Shown: one piece after another, positions 24 through 22,495 of the stretch
Position numbering within the stretch: the first letter of the stretch is position 1
Layout of the letters: every line of letters begins with the position of its first letter
NCBI GenBank assembly: GCA_946408315.1
Contig: CAMJRV010000002.1
Location: 1 to 26,565, forward strand
DNA: 26,565 nt
Source: an uncultured Bacillota bacterium
GTDB lineage: Bacteria > Bacillota > Clostridia > Peptostreptococcales > Anaerovoracaceae
Direction: 5' to 3'
Made by a program: the position numbers and the translations under genes
The notes under the pieces: model-generated
What the model was told of the DNA's origin: nothing
What the model saw: only the letters and a program-made list of their open reading frames with translations
The model's database searches: none

Positions 24-54
24 GCGCCTGCAATCAAATGCAGGCGCTTTTTTT
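24..54 (+). terminator. Rho-independent terminator
   Basis: A perfect 9-bp stem (24-32 with 39-47, GCGCCTGCA against TGCAGGCGC) with a 6-nt loop is followed by seven T residues. It would end transcription of a + strand gene lying to the left of the window and insulate the cotJ operon. Confidence 0.85.
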
Positions 55-116: not shown

Positions 117-144
117 CACCCAATCTTTTGCGTGTCATAGAATG
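117..144 (+). promoter_or_regulatory. Candidate mother-cell (sigma-E/sigma-K type) promoter of cotJABC
   Basis: CATAGAAT at 136-143 matches seven of eight positions of the sigma-E -10 consensus CATACANT. It also fits the sigma-K form CATANNNTA except for the last base, with an AC at 118-119 giving the 16-bp spacing of a sigma-K -35. A sigma-E -35 is not clear. In Bacillus subtilis cotJABC is transcribed by sigma-E in the mother cell. The predicted transcript would start near 150, leaving the ribosome binding site at 163-170 in the leader. Inferred by eye only. Confidence 0.45.
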
Positions 145-180
145 GTAGGGAAGAAACCCAAGAAAGGAGAGCATTTTACC

Positions 181-441
181 TTGAATAAAATAGAATCTCA
201 AATAGAGAATATCCGAAATGAGGAAGAGCCCTATGTCGGAATGCCGATTTCTATTCTCAACCGGAATATGAATTGTAATCCGGGGAATTGCCGCCAGGAT
301 CCGCTGGCCGGACTGCCTGTGGCAATGGCTTATGTTCCGTGGCAATGCTGGGGTGAAACGTATGAGCCGACAGAGGGCTGGCATCGCGGCACCATCTTCC
401 CAGAGCTCGATTTACCGTTCTTAGGAGGAGGTACGTGTTAA
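181..441 (+). CDS. cotJA: Spore coat associated protein CotJA
   Basis: First gene of the cotJ operon, a small protein of the spore coat or outer cortex layer made in the mother cell. The family signature is clear in the second half: AMAYVPWQCW, then a Tyr-Glu-Pro segment, GTIFPELDLPF and a glycine-rich end. I chose the TTG start at 181 because AAAGGAGA at 163-170 lies 10 nt upstream. The earlier in-frame ATG at 142 has no ribosome binding site and falls inside the predicted -10 hexamer. The product is 86 aa, close to the usual size. The stop lies 1 nt before cotJB, so the two are probably coupled. Family assignment is firm; the exact start is an inference. Confidence 0.9.
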   Translation: MNKIESQIENIRNEEEPYVGMPISILNRNMNCNPGNCRQDPLAGLPVAMAYVPWQCWGETYEPTEGWHRGTIFPELDLPFLGGGTC

Positions 442-442: not shown

Positions 443-694
443 ATGAATACGCAGAATGAATTGTTCAGAAAAATTCAGATCCTTGAATTTGTAGTTCACG
501 ATACCGCCTTGTATCTCGATACCCACCCGATGGACCAGGAAGCTTTATGCTACTATCATAAATACAGGGAATTGTTAAAAGCCGCCGTTGCCGAGCACAA
601 CGCCTGTTACGGTCCCATGACAGCCGACGCTGTGGAATCAAAAAATAAATGGACCTGGATCGAAAAACCATGGCCGTGGGAAATGGAGGCGTAG
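443..694 (+). CDS. cotJB: Spore coat protein CotJB
   Basis: An 83-aa CotJB family protein, the second member of the cotJABC coat operon. Recognisable parts are the N-terminal helical stretch followed by DTALYLDTHP, the central YYHKYRELL segment and the tryptophan-rich C-terminus (WTWIEKPWPWE). A strong GGAGGAGGT ribosome binding site lies just upstream, overlapping the end of cotJA. A second GGAGG near the 3' end (685-689) serves cotJC, which begins 2 nt after the cotJB stop. CotJB is thought to act with CotJA and CotJC in coat assembly. Confidence 0.93.
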   Translation: MNTQNELFRKIQILEFVVHDTALYLDTHPMDQEALCYYHKYRELLKAAVAEHNACYGPMTADAVESKNKWTWIEKPWPWEMEA

Positions 695-696: not shown

Positions 697-810
697 ATGT
701 GGACCTATGAAAAGAAATTGCAGTATCCGGTTAAAATAAAATGTCCGAATCCCGCCATTGCAAAAGTAGTCATCACGCAATACGGAGGTCCGGACGGCAA
801 CAGACTATAA
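697..810 (+). pseudogene. cotJC: cotJC 5' part, interrupted by an intervening element
   Basis: Codons 1-34 of CotJC (MWTYEKKLQYPV through ITQYGGPDG), followed by three element-derived codons and a TAA stop, giving a 37-aa truncated product. CotJC is a manganese-catalase-like ferritin-fold protein of the spore coat, normally about 190-200 aa. The missing remainder is found in the same orientation at 3956-4477. The break lies inside the invariant GGPDGELG segment, exactly at the 15-bp repeat 784-798. The start is good (GGAGG at 685-689, 7-nt spacing). This is probably not a dead gene: site-specific excision would restore it perfectly. Confidence 0.93.
784..798 (+). repeat. Left attachment core (attL side)
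   Basis: GGAGGTCCGGACGGC, identical to 3956-3970. It encodes G-G-P-D-G of CotJC. The flanking base differs on both sides (C before and A after here, T before and G after at the right copy), so the identity block is exactly 15 bp. GGA-GG-TCC forms the centre of a dyad, making GG at 787-788 the likely crossover dinucleotide. Confidence 0.88.
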
Positions 811-828
811 TGGCCGCGCGATTCGTAT

Positions 829-856
829 ACAAATTACATAATCCAGTCATACTATT
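829..856 (+). promoter_or_regulatory. Candidate mother-cell promoter just inside the element
   Basis: CATACTAT at 848-855 resembles the sigma-E/sigma-K -10 box. AC at 829-830 lies 17 bp upstream, as in sigma-K promoters, and GTATACA at 825-831 partly matches a sigma-E -35 at 16 bp. The architecture is like the candidate in front of cotJA. It would give a leader of about 20 nt for the small gene starting at 882. Pattern match by eye only. Confidence 0.35.
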
Positions 857-881
857 CATGAAAATATCAAAGGAGACGGCC

Positions 882-1007
882 ATGGAAAAAAATCAAAACA
901 ATTGGAACAAGAATTCGCAATTGAATGAATGCCCCGAAAAGGACGAGGATGGAAATTGCCTTGTGCCGGGCGTTTACAGAGACTCCGACGAAATCGGAGG
1001 AGGATGA
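882..1007 (+). CDS. 41-aa hydrophilic acidic protein of the intervening element
   Basis: A short gene with an excellent ribosome binding site (AAAGGAGA, 5-nt spacing to ATG) and its own terminator directly downstream. The product is polar, rich in Asn, Asp and Glu, with two cysteines and a Gly-Gly-Gly end. It has no membrane segment and no family that I recognise. It is the first gene inside the left attachment site and has a possible mother-cell promoter. In the Clostridioides difficile skin element a small protein acts as recombination directionality factor; this is one candidate for such a role here, on position and size alone. It could also be a small spore protein. Confidence 0.6.
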   Translation: MEKNQNNWNKNSQLNECPEKDEDGNCLVPGVYRDSDEIGGG

Positions 1008-1011
1008 ACAG

Positions 1012-1049
1012 AAGGCCGCTCGGGGATCGCTCCCAAAGCGGCCTTGTTT
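1012..1049 (+). terminator. Rho-independent terminator after the 41-aa gene
   Basis: Perfect 9-bp stem AAGGCCGCT (1012-1020) with AGCGGCCTT (1037-1045). The loop contains a further GGGA/TCCC pairing, and TTGTTT follows. The T tract is short, so efficiency is uncertain. Confidence 0.65.
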
Positions 1050-1063
1050 CTATTGCTCAGTTT

Positions 1064-1141
1064 GCCATGGTCCCTGTCACTCACAGCCGGCCATGGTCTC
1101 TATCACTCACAGCCGGCCATGGTCTCTATCACTCATAGCTG
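1064..1141. repeat. Three tandem 26-bp repeats
   Basis: Units at 1064-1089, 1090-1115 and 1116-1141. The consensus starts GCCATGGTCTCTATCACT and ends CACAGCCG. Unit 2 differs from units 1 and 3 at about two positions each, so the array is recent or maintained. The unit joints create CCGGCCATGG palindromic stretches. The last unit overlaps the 3' end of the 63-aa - strand gene. There are no unique spacers, so it is not a CRISPR array. It could be a binding site array, or simple slippage. Confidence 0.85.
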
Positions 1142-1324
1142 GCCGTTGTTGTTATTGCTGTTTATATCATTGTTATTGTTCGTTTTGTTCTTATTGATAT
1201 AGAGCCTCAAAGCCTTAATCAAATAAACCATCGTAACGATCCCAAGAATATATATGGCCGCCATAAGCAGCAGCGGGATCAGCGCAAAAAAGCTAAAGGT
1301 CGACAATGCAGAATAGGAATCCAT
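1133..1324 (-). CDS. Small single-pass membrane protein, Asn-rich tail
   Basis: A 63-aa protein whose residues from about 9 to 38 form one long hydrophobic helix (FSFFALIPLLLMAAIYILGI and onward), followed by a basic segment and a low-complexity Lys/Asn tail. AGGGGGG lies 5 nt before the ATG, a good ribosome binding site, which supports it as a real gene. The orientation is opposite to the recombinase. The tail runs into the tandem repeat region at 1116-1141, so the C-terminus may be length-variable. No function recognised; it is cargo of the cotJC element. Confidence 0.6.
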   Translation of the reverse strand: MDSYSALSTFSFFALIPLLLMAAIYILGIVTMVYLIKALRLYINKNKTNNNNDINSNNNNGQL

Positions 1325-1504
1325 AATTACCCCCCCTAAAAGATCTAATGAAACATCTTACACCGTCATAGTATCAAAAGAATTCCTTTCCGGCAATAGA
1401 AACTATAGTGGCTCATAGTCTTCCCTTCTGTGACTCTGTCACAGAAGCCCTCGTTCTTTTTTGCTATTCTGTCTTATATGAAAGTCAGAAAGGCGGTAAT
1501 TTAC

Positions 1505-1663
1505 ATGAAATATTTTCTCGGCGCGCTCATCGGCGCAGTGATAGGTTTTGCTTATTATAAGTTTGTCGGCTGTTCCACCGGTACTTGTCCGATTACTTCC
1601 AAGCCGCTCAACGCCTCCCTTTACGGCGCTGTGATGGGGCTTCTCGTGGCCGGGATTCGGTAG
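1505..1663 (+). CDS. Small two-helix membrane protein, DUF6132-like
   Basis: A 52-aa protein with two glycine-rich hydrophobic segments (residues 3-19 and 38-50) joined by a loop holding the motif GCSTGTCPITS. This cysteine-containing motif is typical of the DUF6132 family of small membrane proteins of unknown function. I chose the ATG at 1505 because an AGGCGGT-like ribosome binding site precedes it; the longer in-frame versions from 1430 or 1478 lack the family's N-terminus. Its 3' end overlaps the convergent 74-aa gene by 56 bp. Family match is from memory of the motif. Confidence 0.65.
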   Translation: MKYFLGALIGAVIGFAYYKFVGCSTGTCPITSKPLNASLYGAVMGLLVAGIR

Positions 1664-1832
1664 TCTCCCGGTCCTTTCTGCAATATCCGGCAGCCTCCAT
1701 AAACCTGTCGGTGATTTTCCCTGAAATCATTTTCCGCTCTTCTTCCGGAATATCGTCCCAGGCCCGCTCGATCCGCTCTCCATTTATGACGGAAACAACG
1801 GTGGTTTTGACGGTAAGCTCTTTTCGTGCCAT
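1608..1832 (-). CDS. Small charged hypothetical protein of the element
   Basis: A 74-aa soluble protein starting MARKELTVKTTVVSVINGER. A core with an RAWDDIPEEER segment is predicted to be mixed strand and helix, and the tail is highly basic (QRRKGRR). The start at 1832 has GAGGAGGG 7 nt upstream, a strong ribosome binding site, whereas the longer in-frame start at 1871 does not. It is convergent with the DUF6132-like gene and overlaps its last 56 bp, so the basic tail may be a by-product of that overlap. I do not recognise the family. Size, charge and location make it another candidate accessory factor for the recombinase. Confidence 0.6.
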   Translation of the reverse strand: MARKELTVKTTVVSVINGERIERAWDDIPEEERKMISGKITDRFMEAAGYCRKDRETTESRPREAPSQRRKGRR

Positions 1833-1919
1833 AGGATTTCCCTCCTCTGTTGGAATCCTATGAAACGACAATTTGTCCTATGCGGATTTCATTTTTTCCC
1901 TGATTTGGATAATCATATC

Positions 1920-1947
1920 TTGATTTCTTTTCCAAATGCGATATAAT
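1920..1947 (+). promoter_or_regulatory. Promoter of the PH-domain gene, probably also the recombinase
   Basis: TTGATT (1920-1925) and a perfect TATAAT (1942-1947) with a 16-bp spacer make a good sigma-A promoter. Directly downstream, CATACATT at 1951-1958 is a perfect match to the sigma-E -10 consensus CATACANT, but I see no matching -35 at the right distance. Confidence 0.6.
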
Positions 1948-2006
1948 CAACATACATTGAGAGACCTGTTATGGGAGAAAAAGTAAATTCAAACGGAGGT
2001 ATTATC

Positions 2007-2375
2007 ATGGCTGAAACATCTGCAATTTTAGCGTGGACACTGATTTCCGAATGTCCGATTCCTGAGGATGTAACCGATCTGCTCGTATCCGGAGAGCACG
2101 CCGTTGCCGCTTACAAAACCCTGCGAGACAGCGCGATTTTTACGAACAAAAGGCTGATCGTAAGAGACGCTCAGGGGATTACCGGAAAAAAGGTTGAAAT
2201 TTATTCCTTGCCTTATAGCTCAATCAATATGTGGTCTACGGAGAACGCGGGAAAACTTGACTTTAATGCTGAAGTGGAACTCTGGACCAGAGCCGGACAT
2301 ATCAAGATCAATCTTCAAAAGGGAATGGACATCCGCAAGTTCGACAAATTGATTGCGGAAGCCCTGCTGAAGTAA
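2007..2375 (+). CDS. PH domain-containing protein (bacterial PH, bPH_1 type)
   Basis: A 122-aa soluble protein. After a short helix it shows the beta-rich pattern of bacterial PH-like domains: SGEHAVAAYKTLRDSAIFTNKRLIVRD, then an ITGKKVEIYSLPYSSI segment, a strand pair ending in FNAEVELWT, and a C-terminal helix (DIRKFDKLIAEALL). The FTNKRLIVRD motif is characteristic of this family. The start at 2007 is set by GGAGG 8 nt upstream; the longer start at 1971 has none. It lies between a sigma-A-type promoter and the recombinase gene, from which it is separated by a terminator hairpin and 90 bp. The role in the element is unknown. It could be a regulator or simply retained cargo. Confidence 0.8.
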   Translation: MAETSAILAWTLISECPIPEDVTDLLVSGEHAVAAYKTLRDSAIFTNKRLIVRDAQGITGKKVEIYSLPYSSINMWSTENAGKLDFNAEVELWTRAGHIKINLQKGMDIRKFDKLIAEALLK

Positions 2376-2393
2376 CAGAAAAAGGTTGCCGCT

Positions 2394-2424
2394 GCCCGAG
2401 AAAATCAAGTTCTCGGGCATTTTT
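2394..2424 (+). terminator. Terminator between the PH gene and the recombinase
   Basis: Perfect 9-bp stem GCCCGAGAA (2394-2402) with TTCTCGGGC (2410-2418), then ATTTTT. It leaves only about 26 bp before the recombinase ribosome binding site, too little for a normal promoter. The recombinase may therefore depend on read-through, or be kept low by this hairpin. Confidence 0.75.
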
Positions 2425-2465
2425 ATGCCCTCCTGTCAGTAAAATTACGTAGGAGGCGATGGAAA

Positions 2466-3935
2466 TTGAAAACCGCGGCAGTCTACATACGCGTCAGTAC
2501 GGACGATCAGACGGAGTATTCCCCGGACGCTCAGCTCCGGGAGGTAAAAAAATACGCGGCGGCCCACGGTCTGACCATAGACGAAAAACACATCTACATT
2601 GACGACGGAATCAGCGGCAGAAAAACGAAGAAACGTACCGCCTTCAACAAGATGATCGGGATCGCCAAAGCAGAGCCGAAGCCCTTTGACGTGATCCTGC
2701 TCTGGAAGTCCTCCCGCTTTGCAAGAAACCGGGTGGACAGCGTCATCTATAAAGCGATGCTTCGGCAGCAGCTCGGCATCGACGTCATCTCCATCACCGA
2801 GGATTTCGGAAACGGTAAAATGTCGATGCTGTTCGAGGCCCAGATCGAGGCTTGGGATGAATTTTACAGCATAAATCTAGCCGAGGACGTAAAAAACGGA
2901 ATGACGGAAAAGGCCAATCGGGGCGAGTTTCAGACAGCGCCGCCCCTTGGATACTCCAAGCTTCCCGGCCAGCCCCTTCAGGTCGTTGAAGACGAGGCAA
3001 AGTATATCCGATCGATCTTTGACCAATACCTTGGCGGCATGAGCTTTTTTGCCATCGCAGGGAAATTGAACGCGATGGGCTTTCGCACCAGGCGGGGCAA
3101 CAAAATCGAAAGCCGAACCGTAGAGTATATCCTCAACAATCCTGTCTACAAGGGCTATGTCCGCTGGACGCCGTCAGGAAAGACGGTAAGCAGCCGGATC
3201 TACGACAGCCCGGACACGATCGTCAGAAGATCGGATCACGAGCCGATCATCCCGGAAGAGCTTTTTGACAAGGCCTCCGGCCGGCTTGCCGCAGCCAGGG
3301 AAAGAAAAGCCTCCCGGAGCCGTCCGGCGGAAACGAAGAAGCATTACCTGTCGGGAATCCTGAAGTGTTCTGGCTGCGGCTCTACGCTGGCCTACGCCGG
3401 GTCCAGCGGCGGCTTTCAGTGTATCAAGTACGCTCACGGGACCTGCAAGCCCTCCCACTACATTCAGGCAGATAAAATTGAACCGGCAATCCTGGCGGAA
3501 CTTGACCGAATCAGCCTCCCCGGAGTATATACCGAGAGCGGTCCCGACCCTTCCAGCCACGCGGAAGAAAGGGCGCTGATCCGGAAAGAGCTGGATGCAA
3601 TGGAAAAGATGTTTGACCGGGCAAGGCTGGCCTATCTTTCCGGGATCGATACATTAGAGGAATACGAGTCCAATAAGACCAGAATCCAGGCCGAAATCGA
3701 AGAAAAAGCGGCGGAGCTGGCAAAGATAACCGCACCGGCGGCAGAGCCGAAGCCGAAAGAGGTGAAAGCGGAGCTGGAGAAGACGAGGGCAACAAAAACA
3801 AAAACCATGAACGTCAAATCGTTTCTGGTCAGCGACGCCCCGACGGCGAAAAAGAATGCCGCCCTAGGTGAAATCGTTGAAAAGATCACGTTCAGCAGGC
3901 CCGACGATTGTATAGAGATTTTTTTATACGGTTGA
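2466..3935 (+). CDS. Large serine recombinase of the cotJC element
   Basis: 489 aa, the predicted enzyme that cuts and rejoins the attachment sites. The N-terminal resolvase domain (1-150) has YIRVS with catalytic Ser11 and the SSRFAR arginine motif. The recombinase domain (about 160-270) contains PPLGYSK, the NAMGFRTRRG helix and LNNPVYKGYVRW. A zinc ribbon has Cys301, Cys304, Cys319 and Cys327. A coiled coil (about 365-420, Glu/Ala/Lys-rich) follows, as in SpoIVCA-like and phage integrases. The TTG start at 2466 is preceded by AGGAGG at 9 nt; the ATG at 2459 is out of frame. The stop lies 20 bp before the right attachment core, the usual position for such enzymes. All catalytic and metal-binding residues are present, so it should be active. 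Confidence 0.95.
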   Translation: MKTAAVYIRVSTDDQTEYSPDAQLREVKKYAAAHGLTIDEKHIYIDDGISGRKTKKRTAFNKMIGIAKAEPKPFDVILLWKSSRFARNRVDSVIYKAMLRQQLGIDVISITEDFGNGKMSMLFEAQIEAWDEFYSINLAEDVKNGMTEKANRGEFQTAPPLGYSKLPGQPLQVVEDEAKYIRSIFDQYLGGMSFFAIAGKLNAMGFRTRRGNKIESRTVEYILNNPVYKGYVRWTPSGKTVSSRIYDSPDTIVRRSDHEPIIPEELFDKASGRLAAARERKASRSRPAETKKHYLSGILKCSGCGSTLAYAGSSGGFQCIKYAHGTCKPSHYIQADKIEPAILAELDRISLPGVYTESGPDPSSHAEERALIRKELDAMEKMFDRARLAYLSGIDTLEEYESNKTRIQAEIEEKAAELAKITAPAAEPKPKEVKAELEKTRATKTKTMNVKSFLVSDAPTAKKNAALGEIVEKITFSRPDDCIEIFLYG

Positions 3936-3953
3936 ATTATCGTTTGCCGCCGT
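3936..3953 (+). repeat. Left arm of the predicted attP dyad
   Basis: ATTATCGTTTGCCGCCGT at 3936-3953 matches the reverse complement of 794-811 at 14 of 18 positions. In the excised circle the two arms would flank TTGGAGGTCCGG symmetrically about a GG dinucleotide. It begins at the last base of the recombinase stop codon. Confidence 0.6.
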
Positions 3954-3955
3954 TT

Positions 3956-3970
3956 GGAGGTCCGGACGGC
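3956..3970 (+). repeat. Right attachment core (attR side)
   Basis: Second copy of GGAGGTCCGGACGGC, in the reading frame of the downstream cotJC part (G-G-P-D-G followed by E-L-G). See the left copy at 784-798. Confidence 0.88.
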
Positions 3971-4477
3971 GAGCTGGGCGCTGCGATGCGCTACCTCTCC
4001 CAGCGATATACGATGCCCTTTAAGCAGGCCATCGGCGTATTGAACGATGTCGGCACGGAGGAACTCGCTCACATGGAGATGGTCAGCGCCATCGTGCACC
4101 AGTTAACGAGAAATATGACGATGGAGCAGATCAAGGCAGCCGGGTGGGATACCTATTTTGTAGACCATACCGCGGGCGTTTGGCCCCAGGCCGCCTCAGG
4201 CATGCCGTTTTCCTCCGCAACCTTTGCTTCCAAAGGAGACGCCATCACCGATCTGGTGGAGGATATGGCGGCAGAACAGAAAGCAAGAACTACTTACGAC
4301 AACATTCTTCGTCTCGTAGACGATCCCGATGTCAGAGACCCGATCAAATTCCTGAGGGAGCGGGAAATCGTACATTTCCAGCGATTCGGCGAAGCCCTGC
4401 GCGTCGTGCAGGACAATCTGAACTCCAAGAATTTCTACGCGTTTAACCCCGAATTTGACAGACCGAGAAGAAAATAA
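3956..4477 (+). pseudogene. cotJC: cotJC 3' part (codons 30-202)
   Basis: Carries the bulk of CotJC: GGPDGELGAAMRYLSQRY, the TEELAHMEMVSAIVHQL helix with the Glu and His ligands of the manganese-catalase-like fold, a second helix EDMAAEQKARTTYDNILRL, the conserved REREIVHFQRFGEAL segment, and a basic C-terminus. There is no start codon with a ribosome binding site here, and the frame only opens by chance through a TTG inside the recombinase gene (3908). Joined to 697-798 by excision it makes a normal 202-aa protein with no internal stop or frameshift. That argues it is under selection and not decaying. Confidence 0.93.
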
Positions 4478-4967: not shown

Positions 4968-5726
4968 TCAATCCGCTTTGTTTGGTATAGTCACAGGGAT
5001 TAAGACATACCCTACAGCATCATAATTTTGATTAACAGCAAGGCAAAGAACTTCCCCAAACACTCCTAAGTCGTCATTGCCTATCGGGAAGCCCTCACTA
5101 ACGTTTCCATCAAATTGACCTCTATTACCCACCAAACCTGCATCTTTCCATATTCTTGTAATGAAATCGGCCTGTTCTTGAATAGTGGCGGGTGTCCAAC
5201 TATCATTTGGCGCGCCGTATGCAATGAGTACATCGGCCACATCGGTTAAGTCACCTGTCAGTTGGAAGTCGATCCAACATCCTCCCAATGCATCTTGATT
5301 GCTTCCCCAGTCTCGCTCCCATTCAAACGAATATCTGAGATTTGCATAGGAATACTTTCTAAAGTCTGTCTGATTTGTTTGATGTGTAGATATTGGAGTT
5401 TCAAGTCCGTCTAATTTTTCTTTCAGTCGATCGTCCTCAATTGCATCGTAGCCTTTTTGGAGAATTTTTTTTGCACTGTCTATATCGCTTAAGCCGATAT
5501 ACGCATCCGCCATTCCAAGATACGCTTCCACGCATTTCTCATCGATCTGGATTGCTTTTTCAAATGCAACGATGGCCTCCTCGTAGTTTTCTTCAAGCAA
5601 ATATTTCTGGCCTAAGGACAACAATTCGTCAATCCCCTCTACCGCCGCCCCGCCTCCGCAGCCGGATGCAAAAACCATCAAAACAATCAATAAAATGCTG
5701 ACAAGCTTTTTCTTTAACGCCGTCAT
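4968..5726 (-). CDS. TPR lipoprotein, last of the tandem paralogue array
   Basis: 252 aa. A lipoprotein signal peptide ends in ASGC (lipidated Cys23). A Gly/Ala spacer follows, then two to three TPR-like helices (about 33-105) almost identical to those of the next three genes (DELLSLGQKYLLE, YEEAIVAFEKAI). The remainder (about 115-252) is a unique domain with Trp/Tyr-rich and Asp/Gly-rich segments that I do not recognise. It should sit on the outer face of the membrane. Its ATG overlaps the stop of the gene before it, so translation is coupled. It is the last gene of the T7SS-linked array. It may be a surface partner, sensor or immunity-type protein; that is inference from location only. Confidence 0.85.
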   Translation of the reverse strand: MTALKKKLVSILLIVLMVFASGCGGGAAVEGIDELLSLGQKYLLEENYEEAIVAFEKAIQIDEKCVEAYLGMADAYIGLSDIDSAKKILQKGYDAIEDDRLKEKLDGLETPISTHQTNQTDFRKYSYANLRYSFEWERDWGSNQDALGGCWIDFQLTGDLTDVADVLIAYGAPNDSWTPATIQEQADFITRIWKDAGLVGNRGQFDGNVSEGFPIGNDDLGVFGEVLCLAVNQNYDAVGYVLIPVTIPNKAD

Positions 5727-6526
5727 TCAGTAAACCCCCTTACCCCGTTCAACCCGTCTCCGGACAAGTCCGCATCGCAGGTCGTACAGTATGCCACGGC
5801 ATCACCGTCAATCTTTACCCAGTGGCCATTCTCCGCGGTAAGGTTCCAATTGTGAACTTCTCCATTATCCATATGCCAGACGATATTCATCGCTCCATTC
5901 TGCAGTCCATCTTTGAACGTACCGGATTCAACCGTTTCAATTCCATAGGTATACCCCTCTTCCTTGCTTTCAGGTTCCCCCTGAGGAAATATTACCGTAC
6001 CTTCACCGTTTGGCATATCGTTTTCCCATTGCCCAATATAACGGTATCCGTCTCCATATAGTAAAGTTCCGTTTCCGGACCGACGTCCTTCGTCATCGTA
6101 TTCTCCAATATAGATACCTCTGCTGTCATCATCGCTTAGTATCTGCTTTATAAAATCCATCTCAAGCAAAGCGTTAAGCTCCTCCTCACTTAAGAGCCCG
6201 GATAATTTGCTGATTGACTTGGATAAAAAATCTTCCTTTTGGTCTGCATCAATTGCATTGCTGCCGACCTCAATAATGGAAATCGCTTTATCAGCCTGCT
6301 CCAACCCAACATAGGATGACACTATCCCAAAATATGCGTCCACACATTTTTCATCAATCTCAATGACTTTTTCAAAGGCAATAATGGCTTCTTCGTAATT
6401 TCCCTCAAGGAGATATTTCTGGCCCAGGGACAATAATTCGTCAAGCCCCTCTCCCGTCGCCCCGGCTCCGCAGCCGGAAGCAAAGGTGATTAAGACAATT
6501 AATAAAATACTGACAAGCTTTTTCAT
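5723..6526 (-). CDS. TPR and MORN-repeat lipoprotein
   Basis: 267 aa, lipobox ASGC with Cys19, then the shared TPR block (about 27-100). After a helical linker come MORN-type repeats around residues 140-220 (YIGEYDDEGRRSGNGTLLY, then YIGQWENDMPNGEGTVIF and a degenerate third). The C-terminus carries a Cys-x-x-Cys pair (YCTTCDADL). I chose the ATG at 6526 because AAAGGA lies 6 nt before it, whereas the ATG five codons earlier overlaps that site. It is a surface-anchored protein of the paralogue array. MORN repeats often mediate binding to membranes or partners. The function is unknown. Confidence 0.87.
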   Translation of the reverse strand: MKKLVSILLIVLITFASGCGAGATGEGLDELLSLGQKYLLEGNYEEAIIAFEKVIEIDEKCVDAYFGIVSSYVGLEQADKAISIIEVGSNAIDADQKEDFLSKSISKLSGLLSEEELNALLEMDFIKQILSDDDSRGIYIGEYDDEGRRSGNGTLLYGDGYRYIGQWENDMPNGEGTVIFPQGEPESKEEGYTYGIETVESGTFKDGLQNGAMNIVWHMDNGEVHNWNLTAENGHWVKIDGDAVAYCTTCDADLSGDGLNGVRGFTE

Positions 6527-6544
6527 ACTGTTTCCTTTCATTTG

Positions 6545-7657
6545 CTAATGTATTTGCGCCCGTTGGCTGGATAAGGACGCAATCTGAAAGTCCTCTTTAT
6601 TCGATGTAGTCAGGCAGGTAGGAGAGTGATATTCCGTCTTACTATCTGCATCCACGCCACCCGCGCCGTCCACGCCAAAGGTAGGCTCACCTGTATCCAG
6701 ATCCGTTCCATACGCCAGAGAGTTTGGGTCCCCATTCAGATTCATATTCCCTGTTTGATTCGGAATCCCATCCACAAAGGTGCTCTGTATTCTTTGAACA
6801 CGTCCATCCCACATCCCCTCTTGCTCCGTGACCGTCCCGGACCATACTCCTCCCTGCATTTTGCCCGAGATCAAAGTATCACGGGCCTTGATAACATTCC
6901 CGTCGGCGGCAAAAAATGACCTTTTTACTTCACAGGTGCCTTCTGCATATCCCCGGGACCAGGTGCAATGTACAACCGAATACTGCTGTGAAACATCCCC
7001 ACCGCCAGTCATGTTAAAGTTCAGCGAAGTCTGCACACCGGTCCCGTCTGCAAGGGCATTGCGCCAGCTTCCATAATATACAGCCATCCACCTTCCACCG
7101 TCATCATGTTTCCAATATCCGATCAGCATGCCGGTTCCGTTTACCGTGTTTCCGTAATCAAAAAGAACTCCATTCCCTTGGGTTTCCCCGTATGCTTCTA
7201 AAACAGCGAGTACGCCTGCACCCTGCATAAGCACACGCGCCGAATCTGTATCGTCTTCTGTAAAGCTTTTCATAAGCTCCTGCATTATCTTATCTTCATC
7301 CGCAGTCAGAAGGGCCTTCCATTGCTTTAAATCTCCTGCGGCGATCAAGTCGTCCAGCCTCACCTTCAGACGCTCATCTCCTGTCGCATCGTAACCCTTT
7401 TGCAGGATTTCTTTGGCCTTGTCTATATCATCCAAACCAACATAGGCATCCGCCATCCCAAGATATGCGTCCACGCATTTCTTATCGATTTTAATCGCCT
7501 TTTCAAAGGCTACAATGGCTTCTTCATAATTTCCCTCAAGGAGATATTTCTGACCAAGGGACAATAATTCGTCAAGCCCCTCTCCCGTCGCCCCGCCTCC
7601 ACAGCCGGAAGAAAAAATTACAAAGAGAATCAATAGAATACTTACAAGCTTTTTCAT
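6545..7657 (-). CDS. TPR lipoprotein with long unique C-terminal domain
   Basis: 370 aa. Lipobox SSGC with Cys19, the shared TPR block (about 27-110, including the YVGLDDIDKAKEILQKGYDA helix pair found also in the last gene of the array), then a long region of about 240 aa. That region has MORN-like, Trp/Gly-rich strands (YYGSWRNALADGTGV, GVWSGTVTEQEGMWDG) but no clean repeat. The C-terminal 50 residues are low in hydrophobics and may be disordered. The ribosome binding site is AAGGAAAG. A 113-nt gap separates it from the preceding gene. No function assigned. Confidence 0.85.
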   Translation of the reverse strand: MKKLVSILLILFVIFSSGCGGGATGEGLDELLSLGQKYLLEGNYEEAIVAFEKAIKIDKKCVDAYLGMADAYVGLDDIDKAKEILQKGYDATGDERLKVRLDDLIAAGDLKQWKALLTADEDKIMQELMKSFTEDDTDSARVLMQGAGVLAVLEAYGETQGNGVLFDYGNTVNGTGMLIGYWKHDDGGRWMAVYYGSWRNALADGTGVQTSLNFNMTGGGDVSQQYSVVHCTWSRGYAEGTCEVKRSFFAADGNVIKARDTLISGKMQGGVWSGTVTEQEGMWDGRVQRIQSTFVDGIPNQTGNMNLNGDPNSLAYGTDLDTGEPTFGVDGAGGVDADSKTEYHSPTCLTTSNKEDFQIASLSSQRAQIH

Positions 7658-7770
7658 TGCACATCTCTTTCCTTAACATCTATTTGAACAGATTCATAAA
7701 ACTCTCTCGATTGCTTGAAAGCTCGGTTCGCTCGTCAAGATAAACGTTCCTCCATACAGCCTATTCTCTT

Positions 7771-8433
7771 TTATCTGTACTCACTTTGGAAAGCTATTGT
7801 TCCATCTGTATTATAACGAGTTACTCTGCTATGTTCATGATTAGAACTATACTCATTTATGTAATACCCTGTTATTGTCCCGTCAGCATTATATTGGGTG
7901 CCTTTAATTAAGTAGCCATCCTTGTCGCTTTCAAAAATTTCGTAAAATTCTATCGTTTCATTAATGTTGTACTGTGTTCCCTTGTATGGATTCCCATTGT
8001 CGTAATACTCCCATATATAATAACCGTCCTTATTTTTTTCATATTTGGTATGTTTCCCATAAACGTCGTATCGGTTCCCCTCATTGTCCTGATACTCACC
8101 ACCATTTCGGAGAGCTTTAATCCGGTTTCGATATAAATCACCCTTCGTCAGATCGAGCGATATTACCATCTCATAGTCATCCGCCGCTTTGTCGTACTCT
8201 TTGAGTTCCGTGTATGCATCTCCACGACCAATATACGCCTCCACGCGTTTGAGGTCGATTTTGATAGCCGCCGTGAAGGCAATGCTAGCCTCTTCGTAAT
8301 TTCCTTCCAGCAAGTATTTTTGCCCCAGGGCCAACAGTTCGTCGAAGCTTTCCCCCGTCGCTCCGCCTCCGCCTCCGCAGCCGGAAGCAAAAACCATCAA
8401 AACAATCAATATAATATTGACAAGCTTTTTCAC
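7771..8433 (-). CDS. TPR lipoprotein with MORN_2/YwqK-like repeats
   Basis: 220 aa. Lipobox ASGC with Cys19 and a six-glycine spacer. TPRs cover about 30-105, with clear TPR signatures (YTELKEYDKAADDYEMVISLD). The C-terminal half holds imperfect repeats of the form Y-x-x-D-G-x-I/Y-x-x-Y (YNADGTITGYYINEY, YNTDGTIAFQSEY), like the MORN_2 repeats of YwqK-type proteins. It is the first of the four array lipoproteins and the most diverged in its TPR part. It lies 15 nt after the 44-aa membrane protein gene. A surface-exposed binding protein is the most that can be said. Confidence 0.85.
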   Translation of the reverse strand: MKKLVNIILIVLMVFASGCGGGGGATGESFDELLALGQKYLLEGNYEEASIAFTAAIKIDLKRVEAYIGRGDAYTELKEYDKAADDYEMVISLDLTKGDLYRNRIKALRNGGEYQDNEGNRYDVYGKHTKYEKNKDGYYIWEYYDNGNPYKGTQYNINETIEFYEIFESDKDGYLIKGTQYNADGTITGYYINEYSSNHEHSRVTRYNTDGTIAFQSEYR

Positions 8434-8448
8434 GGCACAACCCTTTCC

Positions 8449-8583
8449 TTAATAATCCTTTTTCAACTCTTCTTCCAATTTTCTGCGTTCTTTTTTTCCT
8501 GACACTCGGAAGCAGACCGCAATAATAATCGCCGCTATAAAGACGACGATTCCGCCACATAGCAGCATTGTCCCTAGGCTCAT
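8449..8583 (-). CDS. 44-aa single-pass membrane protein
   Basis: One hydrophobic helix (about residues 4-24, MLLCGGIVVFIAAIIIAVCF) followed by a strongly charged tail of Lys, Arg and Glu. The ATG at 8583 has GGAGGTGG 5 nt upstream; the longer in-frame start at 8661 has no such site and would overlap the kinase gene. It lies between the kinase and the lipoprotein array and may be a small membrane subunit of the T7SS machine. Size is comparable with small accessory membrane proteins of other loci, but there is no sequence match that I recognise. Confidence 0.65.
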   Translation of the reverse strand: MSLGTMLLCGGIVVFIAAIIIAVCFRVSGKKERRKLEEELKKDY

Positions 8584-8651
8584 TTGAACCACCTCCAAAT
8601 TCGCAGGCATCAGCCGAGGCTGACGCCGTCGTTCAATCGCTTTCCATCGGG

Positions 8652-11021
8652 CTAGAACCACCCTCCGGCCTGCAGTTCCTGCATCATGCGATCCAGCATC
8701 TGCATTTCCGTGTCCGTTTCGCCCCGTTGTTCCACATTCTTATATAAGGCTTTTGCTTTGTTATAATGATTTTTCATGGAACTATAGCTTCTCTGGCTGT
8801 TGCTTTTACGCTGCTGCCGGTCAGCCTCCAGGAAAGCAAGGCGCTTATATACCTTATAATTGTCCGGATATTGATCCTCTATGGTCTTCAGCATGGTTTC
8901 GGCCCCTTCGAAGTCATTGATCTGCTGATATAAAATCGCGATGTTTTCCATGACCTGGAAGGTGGTATATCCATTTTGGAACAGCTCATTAAATTTCTGC
9001 AGAGCCTTTTCGTAATAGAGAGACGCTGCAGAAGGGTCTGCCTTGGCCTTCCTGCCATAGGCGTCACCCAGCTGCTCGGCTATATGGAGCCCTGCGGAAG
9101 CGCCTAAGCTGCTTTCCGCATTTTCAAGAAAACGGATTTCCTTGTCAAGATACCCGCTTCCAAGGCGCTGATATGTTTTGGCACATAAAAGAATTGCCCG
9201 CCGCTTGATCGTATCTGTCTCTGCGGCAGCAATCACCTCTTGGAAATGCTGTTCCGCTTCGGCATAATTTCCTTTTGAAAATGCGATTTCACCTTGTACC
9301 ATGTAGATGGAGTCCTCACCCAAGCCGTAGTCGATAGCTGTGCTGAGCAATTCCTCTGCTTTTCCCACATCCCCCAGCTTTGCAAAGGTAATGGAATAAT
9401 CACGAAAATACAAGGCATTGGTCTGATTGTATTGAATCGCCCTCTCATAGGCTGTTTTGGCGTTTCCAAAGTCACTTTTTTCAAAATAGGCATTCCCCAG
9501 CACGAACAGAATGTTTCCCAGCTTTTCTTCATCCGCTTTTCCGCCAACTCCATATGGAGGATTGTTGATGATATCCCGGCAATAATCGATGCAGCCATCG
9601 TAATCCCCAATAAAATAGAGCAGCTTAGCTTCTTCCTCGTACGAATCGATCCTATCGGGAATCAATTCCCTAGTCTGACTGATTTCAGTCCGCGCCGCGT
9701 CAAAGCTGCCTGTCTCGATGGAAGCCCGCACTATTTCGATGCCTCTGTTATAGGCAGTCTTTCGCTCTTTGTCCATGGTCAGAATACCCGATCCGGCCAA
9801 GACAAAGGCCAGAACAAAAATCGAAGCACTGACAAGTCGTTTCATTTTCTGCTTTCGCTTGATGCCTTGATACCGGGAATCCAGTTCTACGATGTGCTGA
9901 AGGACATATAAAAGCTCTCCGCCGTTTTGATACCTGTTTTGTGGCAATAGCTGCATGGATTTTTCAATGATGTGAGAAAGTCCTTCGCTGACAGCGCCCC
10001 CCCTTGCAGAAATGGGTGTAATGGAACCGAAATCATGTCCGGGCTTCACCCCTGTCAGCAAATGATGCAAGGTGGCTCCCAGGCTGTAAACATCCGAGCG
10101 CTCGTCAACTCCGTTTCCAACCAGGCCTTCAATCAGGCGCTCCGTTTCCGATTCGGTGTTCGCCGTAAACCTGCCGCCATCCCGCAGAAGTTCTGTTCCA
10201 TCGGTCACAAATTCGGTTTTATCGTCCATAATCCCGGTTTCATCGGCTACAAACTCGGTCTTATCGTCCGCAAACCCGATTTCGCCAGCTACAAACCCGG
10301 CCTTACCGCCTGCAACCCCGGTTTTATCGTCCACAAACCCGGTTTCGTCGAACAGAAACTCAGTTTTATCGCCCGAAGAGACCCTTTTCGGGACGGAATC
10401 CTCAATTAATACTTCTGTTAACACTTCCGTTTTTGGGCCCACCGGCTCCTTGAACTGCGTAAAAGACCGATAATTGTTGATATCACTGTACTGCTCCGGC
10501 GGGGAATAACCGCCGCTGATGCCTGTAGAGGTTTTCATCCCGCTGTCAAAGGCAAGGGAAATATTGAAGTCGATGAGGCAAATATCCCCCTTGGGCGTCA
10601 GCATGATATTGGCAGGCTTGATATCGCTGTGTATGATGGGAGGGTTTTGACTATGAAGATATGCCAACGCTTCCGAAAGCTGCACTGCCCACTTTAGAAC
10701 TGTTTTTTGAGAGTAAACCCGATTTTTTGACAACGCCCGATCCAAGCTGCTGCCGGGAATAAAATCCATGACGGTGAACACCTCGTCGTCGATTTCCAAA
10801 AAATCATAGACTCTGGGAAGATAAGTATGCTTTATATTTTTTAAAATGTCAGCCTCGGCCCGGCTTTCAAGAATGTTCTTCACACTCTCTTTTATCTTCT
10901 TGACGACGACATAGGTTTGAAGCCTTTCATGGTAAGCTTTATAGACTATGCCGCCCCCGCCGGAACCGATTTCTTCTATAATTCGATATGTATCACTCAA
11001 TATGCTTCCGTTGCTTAACAT
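8652..11021 (-). CDS. Membrane Ser/Thr protein kinase with extracytoplasmic TPRs
   Basis: 789 aa. The kinase domain (about 12-375) has a Gly-rich loop GSGGGG at 19-24, Lys41, the catalytic loop HSDIKPAN (131-138, HRD variant), DFN in place of DFG (151-153) and PPE (174-176). Inserted between the activation segment and DVYSLG (310) are about 130 residues containing ten 7-aa repeats (218-287). One membrane helix spans 396-415 and is followed by TPR repeats to the end. I chose ATG 11021 (GGAGGTAAT just upstream); a GTG at 11072 preceded by AAGGAAA is an alternative adding 17 aa. Topology (kinase in, TPR out) matches EssB/YukC, whose cytosolic domain is a pseudokinase. No EssB is otherwise seen here. 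Probably phosphorylates FHA partners and links them to the secretion machine. Confidence 0.92.
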   Translation of the reverse strand: MLSNGSILSDTYRIIEEIGSGGGGIVYKAYHERLQTYVVVKKIKESVKNILESRAEADILKNIKHTYLPRVYDFLEIDDEVFTVMDFIPGSSLDRALSKNRVYSQKTVLKWAVQLSEALAYLHSQNPPIIHSDIKPANIMLTPKGDICLIDFNISLAFDSGMKTSTGISGGYSPPEQYSDINNYRSFTQFKEPVGPKTEVLTEVLIEDSVPKRVSSGDKTEFLFDETGFVDDKTGVAGGKAGFVAGEIGFADDKTEFVADETGIMDDKTEFVTDGTELLRDGGRFTANTESETERLIEGLVGNGVDERSDVYSLGATLHHLLTGVKPGHDFGSITPISARGGAVSEGLSHIIEKSMQLLPQNRYQNGGELLYVLQHIVELDSRYQGIKRKQKMKRLVSASIFVLAFVLAGSGILTMDKERKTAYNRGIEIVRASIETGSFDAARTEISQTRELIPDRIDSYEEEAKLLYFIGDYDGCIDYCRDIINNPPYGVGGKADEEKLGNILFVLGNAYFEKSDFGNAKTAYERAIQYNQTNALYFRDYSITFAKLGDVGKAEELLSTAIDYGLGEDSIYMVQGEIAFSKGNYAEAEQHFQEVIAAAETDTIKRRAILLCAKTYQRLGSGYLDKEIRFLENAESSLGASAGLHIAEQLGDAYGRKAKADPSAASLYYEKALQKFNELFQNGYTTFQVMENIAILYQQINDFEGAETMLKTIEDQYPDNYKVYKRLAFLEADRQQRKSNSQRSYSSMKNHYNKAKALYKNVEQRGETDTEMQMLDRMMQELQAGGWF
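10161..10370 (-). repeat. Ten 21-bp repeats encoding heptads inside the kinase
   Basis: Ten consecutive 21-bp units encode D-K/E-T-E/G-F-V-A/D type heptads: DKTEFLF, DETGFVD, DKTGVAG, GKAGFVA, GEIGFAD, DKTEFVA, DETGIMD, DKTEFVT, DGTELLR, DGGRFTA. Seven of ten keep Thr at position 3. The units are degenerate at DNA level but in register. They lie within the catalytic domain between the activation segment and helix F, an unusual place for an insertion. Confidence 0.88.
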
Positions 11022-11102
11022 ATTACCTCCATTTAGCCTTACTCTTCCTGGAATATTCTTTTCCCGATTCACCCATTTCCTTCGGTATTTTCCCGGCGCC
11101 TA

Positions 11103-11426
11103 TCACCAGTAAAGATGTTTCGGAAGGCGGCTCGCCGCATTGTATGCGGTTTCCTGTGCGGACTGATACGCGTTGGCACAGGCCGTAAGAGCCTCTCCAA
11201 ATTTTTTCAGCGACTCACGGAACTTTACCGTTGTTGAATCGGCGGCGTCCACGCCTTCCCACTTGCCTCCGAACGTTTGCGCATCAAGGCCAATCCAGTC
11301 GGCGGTAAGCATTCCCTTTATCTCCGAGTCCGCGGAGCGCATTTCCCTGTCCTGAACGGAGCAGTATTCGGTAATTGCCCCTGCAACATCACGCAAGACC
11401 TTATGATTTACTTCAATCGATGCCAT
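11103..11426 (-). CDS. WXG100 family protein
   Basis: 107 aa, helix-turn-helix hairpin with the turn motif W-I-G (TADWIGLDAQTFGGKWEGV). WXG100 (EsxA-like) proteins are small dimeric substrates or adaptors of type VII secretion. The C-terminus is longer and more basic than in a minimal EsxA (ASRLPKHLYW). It follows another WXG100 gene by 10 nt and precedes the kinase. It may be a partner for the lipase effector upstream, or a structural substrate. Confidence 0.85.
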   Translation of the reverse strand: MASIEVNHKVLRDVAGAITEYCSVQDREMRSADSEIKGMLTADWIGLDAQTFGGKWEGVDAADSTTVKFRESLKKFGEALTACANAYQSAQETAYNAASRLPKHLYW

Positions 11427-11436
11427 ATCTTATCCC

Positions 11437-11736
11437 TCACTTAAATTTATCCGCTAATTTTGTGTTGACATCTTCGGTATTTCCGTATCCGGGATTGACC
11501 TGCTGTTCAAGCAGATTCATATAGTTTTGAAGAACTGCCGAACGCACATCATTGTTCTTAAATAATTGGTACATGGTACTTTTCGCCGTTTCCCCAGCGG
11601 CGCTCTTCCAATTGCTGTCCAGTTTTTTTGCTTTATTTTGCAGCGTGCGAAACTCAGCGTTAATATTACTGTTCACAGTACGGAGCTTGTTTACTGAAGA
11701 AGCGATTCGATCCGTATTGACTACTTGCTTTGCCAT
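11437..11736 (-). CDS. WXG100-like protein
   Basis: 99 aa, all helical, with the turn at NWKSAAGETAKSTMYQL (W-K-S in place of W-x-G). Its last residues (NTEDVNTKLADKFK) closely resemble the end of the 101-aa WXG100 protein encoded at 14286-14591 (TEQVNTQLADAFK), so the two are paralogues. The ATG at 11736 has GAGGAGG 7 nt upstream; the longer frame from 11769 overlaps the previous gene without a ribosome binding site. Likely a T7SS substrate or a targeting partner of the lipase. Confidence 0.82.
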   Translation of the reverse strand: MAKQVVNTDRIASSVNKLRTVNSNINAEFRTLQNKAKKLDSNWKSAAGETAKSTMYQLFKNNDVRSAVLQNYMNLLEQQVNPGYGNTEDVNTKLADKFK

Positions 11737-11747
11737 ATGGCACCTCC

Positions 11748-11966
11748 TCAATCGTTGTCTCTCATCCACGAGGCAAGCCGGTTCGTGTCCACTCTGTTGA
11801 GCCGCTTCAGCACCCCTTCATACTTATCCGCAACCTTATCGATGCAGTCTCCGCATAAGTCCTGACCAATCCCGGTGAAGTCGTGCCGCACACCCCACTC
11901 AATGTCACGCAGCTCATTGATAATGGAACGTAATTCTCTTCTGCACTCATTTAGACTTCTGCTCAT
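11748..11966 (-). CDS. 72-aa helical T7SS-associated protein with Cys motif
   Basis: A small, highly charged helical protein. The sequence RELRSIINELRDIEWGVRHDF is followed by GIGQDLCGDCIDKVADKY, with a Cys-x-x-Cys pair, and a third helix. A tryptophan-glycine pair (EWG) sits between helices 1 and 2, reminiscent of the WXG turn. It lies 4 nt after the lipase gene. In T7SS effector operons small helical partners of this size pair with the effector's targeting domain, so a chaperone or targeting role for the lipase is plausible. No named family recognised with certainty. Confidence 0.75.
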   Translation of the reverse strand: MSRSLNECRRELRSIINELRDIEWGVRHDFTGIGQDLCGDCIDKVADKYEGVLKRLNRVDTNRLASWMRDND

Positions 11967-11970
11967 CTGT

Positions 11971-13512
11971 CTATCCTCCCATATAGCCGCGGGCTTTATC
12001 TTCGGCAGCTTTAAAGTCGGCGGCGGCGTTGTTTAAGTACGATTTAATTTTATTAAGGGTAGGGCTTCCGCTTGTCAGCATGTTTGCCATCAGAATATCC
12101 CAGATATCAAGTAATCCCACCTGCCAATACAGTCCATTCAAATCACCGTCCAGGGCTTTCAATCGATTGTTCACATTGTTAATCCGCGTTGCGTATGCAC
12201 GAAGTTTATCGGTGTCAACCTTGAAGTATGGATTTGCGTTTGCATAGCGCCCTCCCGGGCTTATGCTGCGCAGAAAGCTGGCCAGCTTTCCCAGCGCGTT
12301 TTTAATCGCCTGCAGGCAGTTTATCACGAAGTCTTTCACAGCCTTTGCAAGCCCGATGATTCCCTCCACAATGTGAATGAGCGCGTCAATAAGGTATGCG
12401 AGCACAATCATACTTTCCGCCAATAGTATCAGTACTGGGGATAAAAGGATAAGCCCCACGATAATCGCAGGATTTTCTTTCAGATACTTCTCAAGCATTT
12501 TATCAACGCCCAATTCTTGTAAAACCGCAAGTATGTTCTCAGGATTGTGCAGCAGAGTTTCCCAAATGACAGGAAGTAAATTTACAAGGTATAAATATTC
12601 CTCTTTACTGATGTGTTCAAAAATCTCTTCGCCCCCATTGAGATGATTTTCTATCAACTTCATTACGATTAAAGCGGCCTCATACCTTTGGTCCGGCGGC
12701 AAATCTCCCAAATAACCCACTAATTTTGTTGTAAGCTTGCTTACTTCGCCTTCCTCGCATTCGGGATTGAGTTTTCCATTGGTAATATGGGTAAAAATAT
12801 CGTGATAACCGCCGATGTCAGCGGCTTCAGGCGTCGATACAAAAAAAGTGTTTTCAGGAGGGGTCATCTGAACCTCTCCTAAACCATGAACATAATCATT
12901 TTCTCCATAGACGGCATAGCTTTTTTCCCGTTGAAGCTCGTAGTATGCTTCGCCCCAAAGACGCTTTGCCTCCTCAATTACACTGCTGCTGAAGCCTGGG
13001 CCGTCATTTGAGATGCAATTTGTTATCAGGCTTCCGTACTCTGAAAAAAGCGTGACAAACATGGCATTGTTTCCGCCCTGGGAATGCCCTGTTACATATA
13101 GCTGTCCCTGATTATTATAGTTCCTTTCAATCGTGTCATCAAAATACGCCAGCGCCCATTTCTGCATATCACTGGGGCCCTGGCCATAGGCGGAATCTGC
13201 GTTATATACCCAATTTCCATCCCCCGTTCCACGATAAGCAACATAGGTGTCACCATTTGGGAACTGAAAGGTCGCGGCGTTCATCGTGCCGTATTCTGAT
13301 TTATGTGACCAACTGGTATCAACAATCGTTACATTTTCAAGACCATTTTGCTGCATAACCGCATACAGCTCTTCCTTATGAGAGAACTTGTAAGGGCTGC
13401 CCTTGCCAAGGATTTCGGCCAAAGTTTTCCCCTGTAATGCCGGCTGTCCTGAGATGTCATATAATAACGCTGAAAATCCTGCGCTGACATCATAGGGTAC
13501 AGAACTCCCCAT
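11971..13512 (-). CDS. Putative T7SS lipase effector, DUF2974/Mbeg1-like, helical C-terminus
   Basis: 513 aa, no signal peptide. The N-terminal alpha/beta-hydrolase domain (1 to about 250) has TFQFPNGDTYVAYRGT, the nucleophile elbow GHSQG with Ser144, and candidate triad residues Asp206 (YGENDYVHG) and His237 (GGYHDIF). A helical linker follows, then a strongly hydrophobic stretch at 349-380. The C-terminal domain (about 427-513) resembles a WXG100 hairpin (VDTDKLRAYATRINNVNNRL, a turn with LYWQVG, then LNKIKSYLNNAAADFKAAED). The order enzyme first, secretion domain last is the reverse of LXG toxins and recalls the Staphylococcus aureus T7SS lipase TslA. It lies 3 nt downstream of a lipoprotein gene and upstream of three small helical proteins. 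Effector status is inference. Confidence 0.85.
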   Translation of the reverse strand: MGSSVPYDVSAGFSALLYDISGQPALQGKTLAEILGKGSPYKFSHKEELYAVMQQNGLENVTIVDTSWSHKSEYGTMNAATFQFPNGDTYVAYRGTGDGNWVYNADSAYGQGPSDMQKWALAYFDDTIERNYNNQGQLYVTGHSQGGNNAMFVTLFSEYGSLITNCISNDGPGFSSSVIEEAKRLWGEAYYELQREKSYAVYGENDYVHGLGEVQMTPPENTFFVSTPEAADIGGYHDIFTHITNGKLNPECEEGEVSKLTTKLVGYLGDLPPDQRYEAALIVMKLIENHLNGGEEIFEHISKEEYLYLVNLLPVIWETLLHNPENILAVLQELGVDKMLEKYLKENPAIIVGLILLSPVLILLAESMIVLAYLIDALIHIVEGIIGLAKAVKDFVINCLQAIKNALGKLASFLRSISPGGRYANANPYFKVDTDKLRAYATRINNVNNRLKALDGDLNGLYWQVGLLDIWDILMANMLTSGSPTLNKIKSYLNNAAADFKAAEDKARGYMGG

Positions 13513-13515
13513 CGC

Positions 13516-14211: not shown

Positions 14212-14285
14212 TTCTACTCCTTGACGCACCTTTGCTGCAAGCCACTTTCCTGCGGTTTGCAGCAAGGGAGCGGTCTGCTGAAAAT

Positions 14286-14591: not shown

Positions 14592-14607
14592 TTCTATTCC
14601 CCCTCTC

Positions 14608-14904: not shown

Positions 14905-14940
14905 GATTTCTATCTCCTTTTGGTTTATTTATAATGCCAA

Positions 14941-14978: not shown

Positions 14979-14999
14979 GAAAGGGCCAGGCACTACATT

Positions 15000-15251: not shown

Positions 15252-15266
15252 ACTTTCATCCTCCCG

Positions 15267-20755: not shown

Positions 20756-20766
20756 TCCGCTCACCT

Positions 20767-22308: not shown

Positions 22309-22364
22309 CCACCTACATCCTTATTTTTATTTGCTAAATTTGCTAAAGTTTTCCTTTCGACTAC

Positions 22365-22393: not shown

Positions 22394-22415
22394 TTCCTTT
22401 CTTCTATTTAAAGAC

Positions 22416-22457: not shown

Positions 22458-22495
22458 ATCTGTCCTTTAAAATTCCGTATGCATCGGGGACCTGC

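Follow-up and report, generated by a model that had tools for sequence, protein, structure and literature searches.

A 3.2-kb element that likely works like sigK skin splits the spore coat gene cotJC, a recurrent target of recombinase-bearing elements in Clostridia

If a spore coat gene is found in two pieces, has it been destroyed, or is it stored in pieces and joined when the spore is made? The question is raised by a contig (CAMJRV010000002.1, assembly GCA_946408315.1) of an uncultured Bacillota bacterium from the family Anaerovoracaceae, of which we analysed positions 1 to 26,565, hereafter the window. Here cotJC is interrupted by a 3,172-bp element. We consider it likely that this intervening element works like the skin element of sigK, judging from its sequence and from analogy with described systems.

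The split itself is real. A first-pass annotation described codons 1-34 and 30-202 of cotJC on either side of 3,172 bp bounded by a perfect, coding 15-bp repeat, and our analysis confirms it. The two copies of the repeat (GGAGGTCCGGACGGC) are 100% identical with an offset of 3,172 bp, and joining 697-798 to 3971-4477 gives one open frame of 202 amino acids (aa), Table 1. In the unexcised form the 5' piece meets a stop after 37 residues. Both pieces match the Pfam family Mn_catalase (PF05067, cut-off 27 bits), and no further match to this family was found in the host assembly (589 contigs, 67% complete). The genes cotJA and cotJB are located directly upstream. The distal piece is an open frame, as had been claimed, but the claim that it has no start of its own holds only in part. 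Formally the frame belongs to an open reading frame (ORF) starting at TTG 3908, within the recombinase gene, and no convincing start was seen. SpoIVA and sigK are present in the host assembly above their cut-offs, SpoIVA as two pieces at contig ends.

Table 1. Coordinates of the cotJ genes, the repeat copies and the features of the element in the window.
Feature	Position	Strand	Basis or remark
cotJA, start codon uncertain	142..441	+	Pfam CotJA 67.7 bits
cotJB	443..694	+	Pfam CotJB 99.6 bits
5' piece of cotJC, codons 1-34	697..798	+	PF05067 34.7 bits; frame reading
Left repeat copy, 15 bp, coding (attachment (att) core)	784..798	+	exact repeat
Left half of would-be attP	788..811	+	17/24 positions pair with 3936-3959
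41-aa ORF	882..1007	+	followed by terminator-like hairpin 1012-1045; 7 homologs
63-aa predicted membrane protein	1133..1324	-	ORF and family searches
52-aa DUF6132 membrane protein	1505..1663	+	DUF6132 match
74-aa gene, candidate recombination directionality factor (RDF)	1608..1832	-	family linked to recombinase clade
SigmaE-like promoter of candidate RDF, ATA-N16-CATAGGAT	1855..1881	-	motif reading
SpoIIID-like box TAGGACAAAT	1871-1880	-	inside candidate RDF promoter
PH-domain protein, start uncertain	1971..2375	+	Pfam bPH_1 125.1 bits
Large serine recombinase, 489 aa, TTG start	2466..3935	+	Pfam Resolvase, Recombinase, Zn_ribbon_recom; PHROG integrase
Right half of would-be attP	3936..3959	+	pairs with 788-811
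Right repeat copy, 15 bp	3956..3970	+	exact repeat
3' piece of cotJC, codons 30-202 and stop	3956..4477	+	PF05067 135.6 bits; frame reading

The large serine recombinase reported in the insert has an intact frame and all three domains above the cut-offs (Resolvase 92.1, Recombinase 79.2 and Zn_ribbon_recom 31.8 bits). Its closest solved relative is the SPbeta integrase YokA (E 2e-10). The would-be circle junction is quasi-palindromic, with 17 of 24 positions pairing across GGAG/GTCC, a count equalled in one of 5000 shuffles, and the empty site, i.e. the joined cotJC, scores 13. At the same place in seven recombinase loci without an adjoining cotJC piece, 13-19 of 22 positions are paired (raw counts).

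Is the split a peculiarity of this genome? Five of nine genomes from the same genus have an intact cotJC, and the joined frame of the window matches these at 85-92% identity, a comparison that the first-pass annotation had proposed as a check. Other members of the genus are split elsewhere, near codons 133-137 (G002, G003) or 60-64 (G005), while elements at the codons used in the window (30-34) are also found in other genomes. Given the five intact copies, the three other splits in the genus and the elements at the same codons elsewhere, the split is more than chance.

The recombinase is tied to this gene. With an alignment of the recombinase we found 512 relatives in named genomes and kept the best 80. 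In 73 of these 80 loci a cotJC piece is found no more than 400 bp from the recombinase stop, the 3' piece in 35 loci and the 5' piece in 38. The other seven comprise two loci that end with the contig, one with a cotJC piece about 900 bp away, three with core-like sequence past the recombinase stop (judged by eye) and one where nothing was recognised. In a viral collection 150 relatives were found and 80 of them kept, of which 11 adjoin a cotJC piece while many others end at or just past the recombinase. The recombinase of Anaerovorax odorimutans is 62% identical to the one in the window, and a 33.6-kb contig of the viral collection seems to hold the same element. In Sinanaerobacter chloroacetimidivorans the recombinase is 54% identical and the element between the core repeats has 3,598 bp. 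Two further recombinases of the same wider clade (L232 and L262, 39% identity) are located beside a gene resembling what we take to be a SleC-type spore cortex enzyme, so that spore genes other than cotJC may also be targets of this phage lineage.

To see how common the splitting is, we surveyed cotJC-like matches more widely. In the family a match was found in 83 of 349 genomes, several with further splits, and in the class Clostridia in at least 256 of 393 genomes (among the matches listed). One hundred Clostridia genomes, apparently without a full-length best match, were listed again; ten whose best match was weak or borderline were not included. Both sides of at least one split were found in 63 of the 100, four have contiguous genes and 33 did not qualify. 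The split sites are located near codons 30-34 (site A), 57-68 (site B) and 133-137 (site C). By a scripted reading of hand-typed positions, excluding full-length paralog matches and six stray partial matches, the 63 genomes divide into 24 with a split at B, 16 at A, 14 at A and B, 6 at C, 2 at B and C and one at all three (G506). Two or more splits are found in 17 of the 100 genomes. In draft genomes the element itself is often not seen, as the two sides of cotJC are on different contigs. Fourteen of the listed genomes have the sides of site A on one contig, 2.6-5.6 kb apart, some with only distantly related recombinases. The element of the window is no isolated case: comparable ones are those of these genomes and the 3.6-kb element of Sinanaerobacter, and larger elements of phage-like make-up also occur. 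In nine of 20 junctions the longest shared word gave the core repeat; the other 11, where the word lies off the core, were left out.

The three sites A, B and C are clear, and they appear to be served by differing recombinase lineages. In a tree of 167 recombinases (FastTree, with some long branches) the seven site-C rows form one clade and site B is represented by two groups. The site-A recombinases fall into a large clade that includes the window, another clade of ten rows and a single isolated row. A separate clade is made up of four recombinases that adjoin a further site, D. Here site labels follow the nearest boundary; as a result, site A is assigned to at least two site-B recombinases (L112_1751, L224_10998), and four probable site-D ones are labelled 'none'. 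From the number of clades and groups per site, about six recombinase lineages use cotJC.

Site D is a probable fourth site, just after the motif HFQRFGE near the 3' end of cotJC. In the 18 loci examined in this zone the frame of cotJC is interrupted or the contig terminates near the motif. A recombinase is found just beyond it in six loci, convergent in L122, L127, L173, L192 and L299 and non-convergent in L208, and none was recognised in the other 12, three of which end with the contig. The site-D loci also comprise L279 and the rest of L293-L304.

In the single-contig genome G165 (L073-L075) one cotJC holds two elements and is in three pieces, the middle one flanked by two convergent recombinases. 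Four pieces are seen in G506 and apparently also in A. odorimutans G086 (L090-L092). In G046 (L085, L086) cotJC is split at site B, with its halves on opposite strands of a single contig and some 1.08 Mb from each other. Simple excision could not bring such halves together, and an inversion may have followed. G085 (L097) has short cotJC-like fragments, possibly decayed, beside an intact copy. A longer cotJC-like paralog, about 35% identical, gives full-length matches among those listed and is apparently unsplit.

The sites coincide with the most conserved motifs of the gene. In conservation, the 8-residue stretches at A, B and C are all among the top 14 of 182. The CotJC family alignment is matched by solved manganese catalases, and the motifs at the three sites align with these structures. 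The motifs at the split sites presumably carry the metal ligands.

Are the pieces then remnants of a gene that was lost? The element could be an ordinary defective prophage that took a conserved gene as its attB, knocked out cotJC and is excised by chance or never. In favour of this, related recombinases are found in phage-like contigs, excision is read here from sequence, the insertion has no date, and other strains may lack the element. In the skin-like reading, too, the element is by descent probably a stripped-down temperate phage. Of the five element proteins searched against PHROGs, the recombinase alone could be given a named phage role (integrase), and no phage structural or replication genes were recognised among the ORFs searched between the repeats, which led us to reject an intact temperate phage. 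However, with nearly all phage genes gone, the recombinase, the att arms and both cotJC pieces are intact. The value of pN/pS (the ratio of non-synonymous to synonymous differences) between the window and the intact copies of the genus is 0.058-0.105, compared with 0.012-0.105 between intact copies, and by this measure the pieces are under purifying selection like intact copies. Among 71 alignments of 3' pieces at site A, classified by length and partly by eye from loci that were not deduplicated, 35 reach the C-terminus and two run into a contig end close to it, 31 break off within the zone of the following site, one stops at a contig end, one is a duplicate alignment and one is frameshifted. 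The proposal that the distal piece is kept intact thus agrees with pN/pS and with nearly all site-A 3' pieces being open, and a defective prophage of this kind is improbable.

The recombinase is predicted to be directed by a factor of the element itself. The divergent 74-aa gene, a candidate for the key control gene, was missed in the first-pass gene inventory. It has a homolog in the S. chloroacetimidivorans element (E 3e-10), and a database search gave 53 homologs, the named ones hypothetical apart from one source's 'cytidylate kinase'. For seven homologs the longest contig has the same size as that of a recombinase homolog or locus (e.g. P0130 and P0002, 4,153 bp). A profile built from 20 first-round matches found 44 ORFs in 43 of 221 loci, and all 39 in recombinase loci are divergent and upstream of the recombinase. 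It matched nothing in shuffled ORFs or in 59 control loci, which hold a tenth of the bases. In the smallest well-supported clade around the recombinase of the window, with ten rows, the family accompanies eight.

The promoter of this family resembles a mother-cell promoter. We compared 33 distinct members that have upstream sequence with 303 control ORFs that have a ribosome site. The element CATA-N2/3-[AT] is found within 45 nt of the chosen start in 28/33 members and 47/303 controls, and the full pair A[TC]A-N14-18-CATA in 23/33 and 15/303. The box [AG]G[GT]ACAA is present in 23/33 members and 14/303 controls. A stricter SpoIIID consensus, of which a literature search gave no printed version, matches 8/33 and 12/303. 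The 33 members are kin, so that a binomial test overstates their independence. We infer that sigmaE, perhaps with SpoIIID, drives the 74-aa gene.

According to PMC5025042, the RDF of the C. difficile skin element, CD1234, is driven by sigmaE and SpoIIID and the recombinase is expressed constitutively; the paper also notes that RDFs have little similarity in sequence to one another. Given the linkage to the recombinase clade, the mother-cell-type promoter, the precedent of CD1234 and the low similarity among RDFs, the 74-aa protein is proposed as the candidate RDF of the element. Another small ORF, of 41 aa, is found close to the left repeat within the element; a sigmaK-like sequence precedes it, and it has seven close homologs. 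We rejected it as the RDF, as a homolog is present in none of the 19 other site-A elements compared; perhaps it is cargo.

In the mechanism that we consider likely, recombination between the two 15-bp repeat copies by the large serine recombinase would free the element as a circle and leave cotJC as one continuous frame. The recombinase is predicted to be switched to excision by a small protein that the element encodes and the mother cell produces, and because the mother cell is terminal, the germ line would keep the element. Both the excision and its timing are inferred here from sequence. The skin-like function suggested in the first-pass annotation is supported by the intact recombinase, the conserved att arms and the intact cotJC pieces, by the presence of sigK and SpoIVA in the host, and by a gene that probably encodes the RDF and has a promoter of mother-cell type.

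Several observations weigh against this skin-like function. The element comes from a metagenome-assembled genome (MAG) and is known from its assembled sequence, and synonymous divergence (dS) is mostly saturated, which leaves the insertion undated. The frameshifted site-A piece (G206, L099) is possibly decayed. Most concern the candidate RDF. Its family is present in only two of 20 small or near-complete site-A elements (the window and S. chloroacetimidivorans), also when searched by profile, and in 37 of the 115 recombinase loci that have more than 4 kb of upstream sequence; for the genome loci alone this is 9 of 50. It is absent for two recombinases of the ten-row clade, L187 and L106, of which L106 is on a short contig. 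Searches of families, PHROGs and structures matched the protein to no known family, sequence or fold, and the predicted structure is of modest confidence (predicted local distance difference test score, pLDDT, 74; predicted TM-score, pTM, 0.42) with no solved-structure match. The protein of the window is basic, with an isoelectric point (pI) of 9.9, unlike CD1234 and SprB, which are described as acidic (PMC5025042); three relatives have pI 4.7-6.2. Finally, the SpoIIID-like box overlaps the -35 region, whereas the box of CD1234 is upstream.

A different use of the same parts would be a phase-variation or population-level switch of cotJC, where excision is heritable in some vegetative lineages. 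Five draft contigs (L072, L093, L293, L303, L304) end exactly at a cotJC att core, which fits a mixture of integrated and empty forms, and PMC10747680 reports yin as excised in part of the culture at all time points. However, contig ends can also be explained by strain mixtures or ordinary assembly breaks, the promoter of the candidate RDF is of mother-cell type, and a coat gene is needed in the mother cell only. We regard such a switch as very unlikely, less likely than a defective prophage. An assembly artefact, suggested by the fragmented MAG, is ruled out, as the isolate genome of S. chloroacetimidivorans BAD-6 has the same arrangement and so have genomes on a single contig (e.g. G600, G487, G540), and we give it next to no weight.

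Beyond the single skin-like element, cotJC may be a bacterial gene in pieces. The motifs GGPDGE, GTEELAH, AAEQKAR and probably VVHFQRFGE, which would line the metal site, would be att sites settled independently by several recombinase lineages, and one mother cell would have to make one to three or more excisions per coat protein. The window would then hold a minimal 3-kb 'DNA intron', with little beyond a recombinase and an excision factor timed to the mother cell. For this wider picture we see the chances as evenly balanced. If it is true, the few cases described so far greatly understate how often development genes are assembled by DNA excision, with one coat gene as a hot spot across Clostridia. 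Small elements like this one would be close to a minimal system of recombinase and RDF, useful for studying why elements of this sort persist and how recombinase direction is controlled, and the candidate RDF family would supply many matched sets of recombinase, RDF and att sites. For annotation, a cotJC gene found split in a MAG should probably not be taken for a pseudogene.

Elsewhere in the window, positions 4968-23452 on the - strand hold a cluster that resembles type VII secretion (WXG100 proteins, an FHA-FtsK/SpoIIIE ATPase, a protein kinase with TPR, a PP2C phosphatase). An Rfam search gave no match at the gathering score.

How does the element compare with known systems? Among interrupted sporulation genes, sigK, spsM, spoVFB, gerE and yabG are named in the papers found. 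In the open-licence literature, searched for cotJC or manganese catalase as a target, no earlier description of such an interruption of cotJC turned up, most subscription papers being outside the search. The SPbeta element reportedly interrupts spsM. It follows the same logic, and its YokA is the best solved relative of the recombinase in the window (YokA/YotN structures). The same logic is described for gin in gerE, which differs in having 28.6 kb and three recombinases (PMC5595907), and for yin in yabG (PMC10747680, where vfbin in spoVFB is also named). SPbeta, gin, yin and vfbin are each described for one gene.

The heterocyst elements of cyanobacteria are also recombinase-bearing elements in development genes, and PMC4874684 describes four of them in one gene, nifD of Rivularia. 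They belong to another phylum and another cell type, and the XisF-type recombinase of the fdxN element (NF041201) was rejected for the window, its model scoring 79.7 bits against a cut-off of 375. In C. difficile R20291 the attachment site of prophage phi027 lies beside a cotJC-related manganese-catalase gene. However, this 678-bp CotJC-like gene is described as located downstream of attR rather than as split, and the portion of PMC11222575 we could consult claims no sporulation-linked excision.

One of the closest parallels is the sigK skin of C. difficile, with CD1231 as recombinase and CD1234 as RDF (PMC5025042); PMC4028888 names sigK skin and cotJ homologs separately. Skin and the cotJC element are both large serine recombinase elements in a mother-cell sporulation gene, with exact in-frame rejoining and a small RDF gene with a sigmaE-type promoter, in the cotJC element a candidate only. 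The cotJC element differs in its target, in the families of its recombinase and RDF, in its size of 3.2 kb and in that excision is deduced. It lies in a sporulation gene, is bounded by a direct repeat that restores the frame and encodes its own site-specific recombinase, as skin-type elements do. By its sequence the element would thus be of a known kind, and what appears new is its minimal size, its target cotJC and the widespread splitting of this gene.

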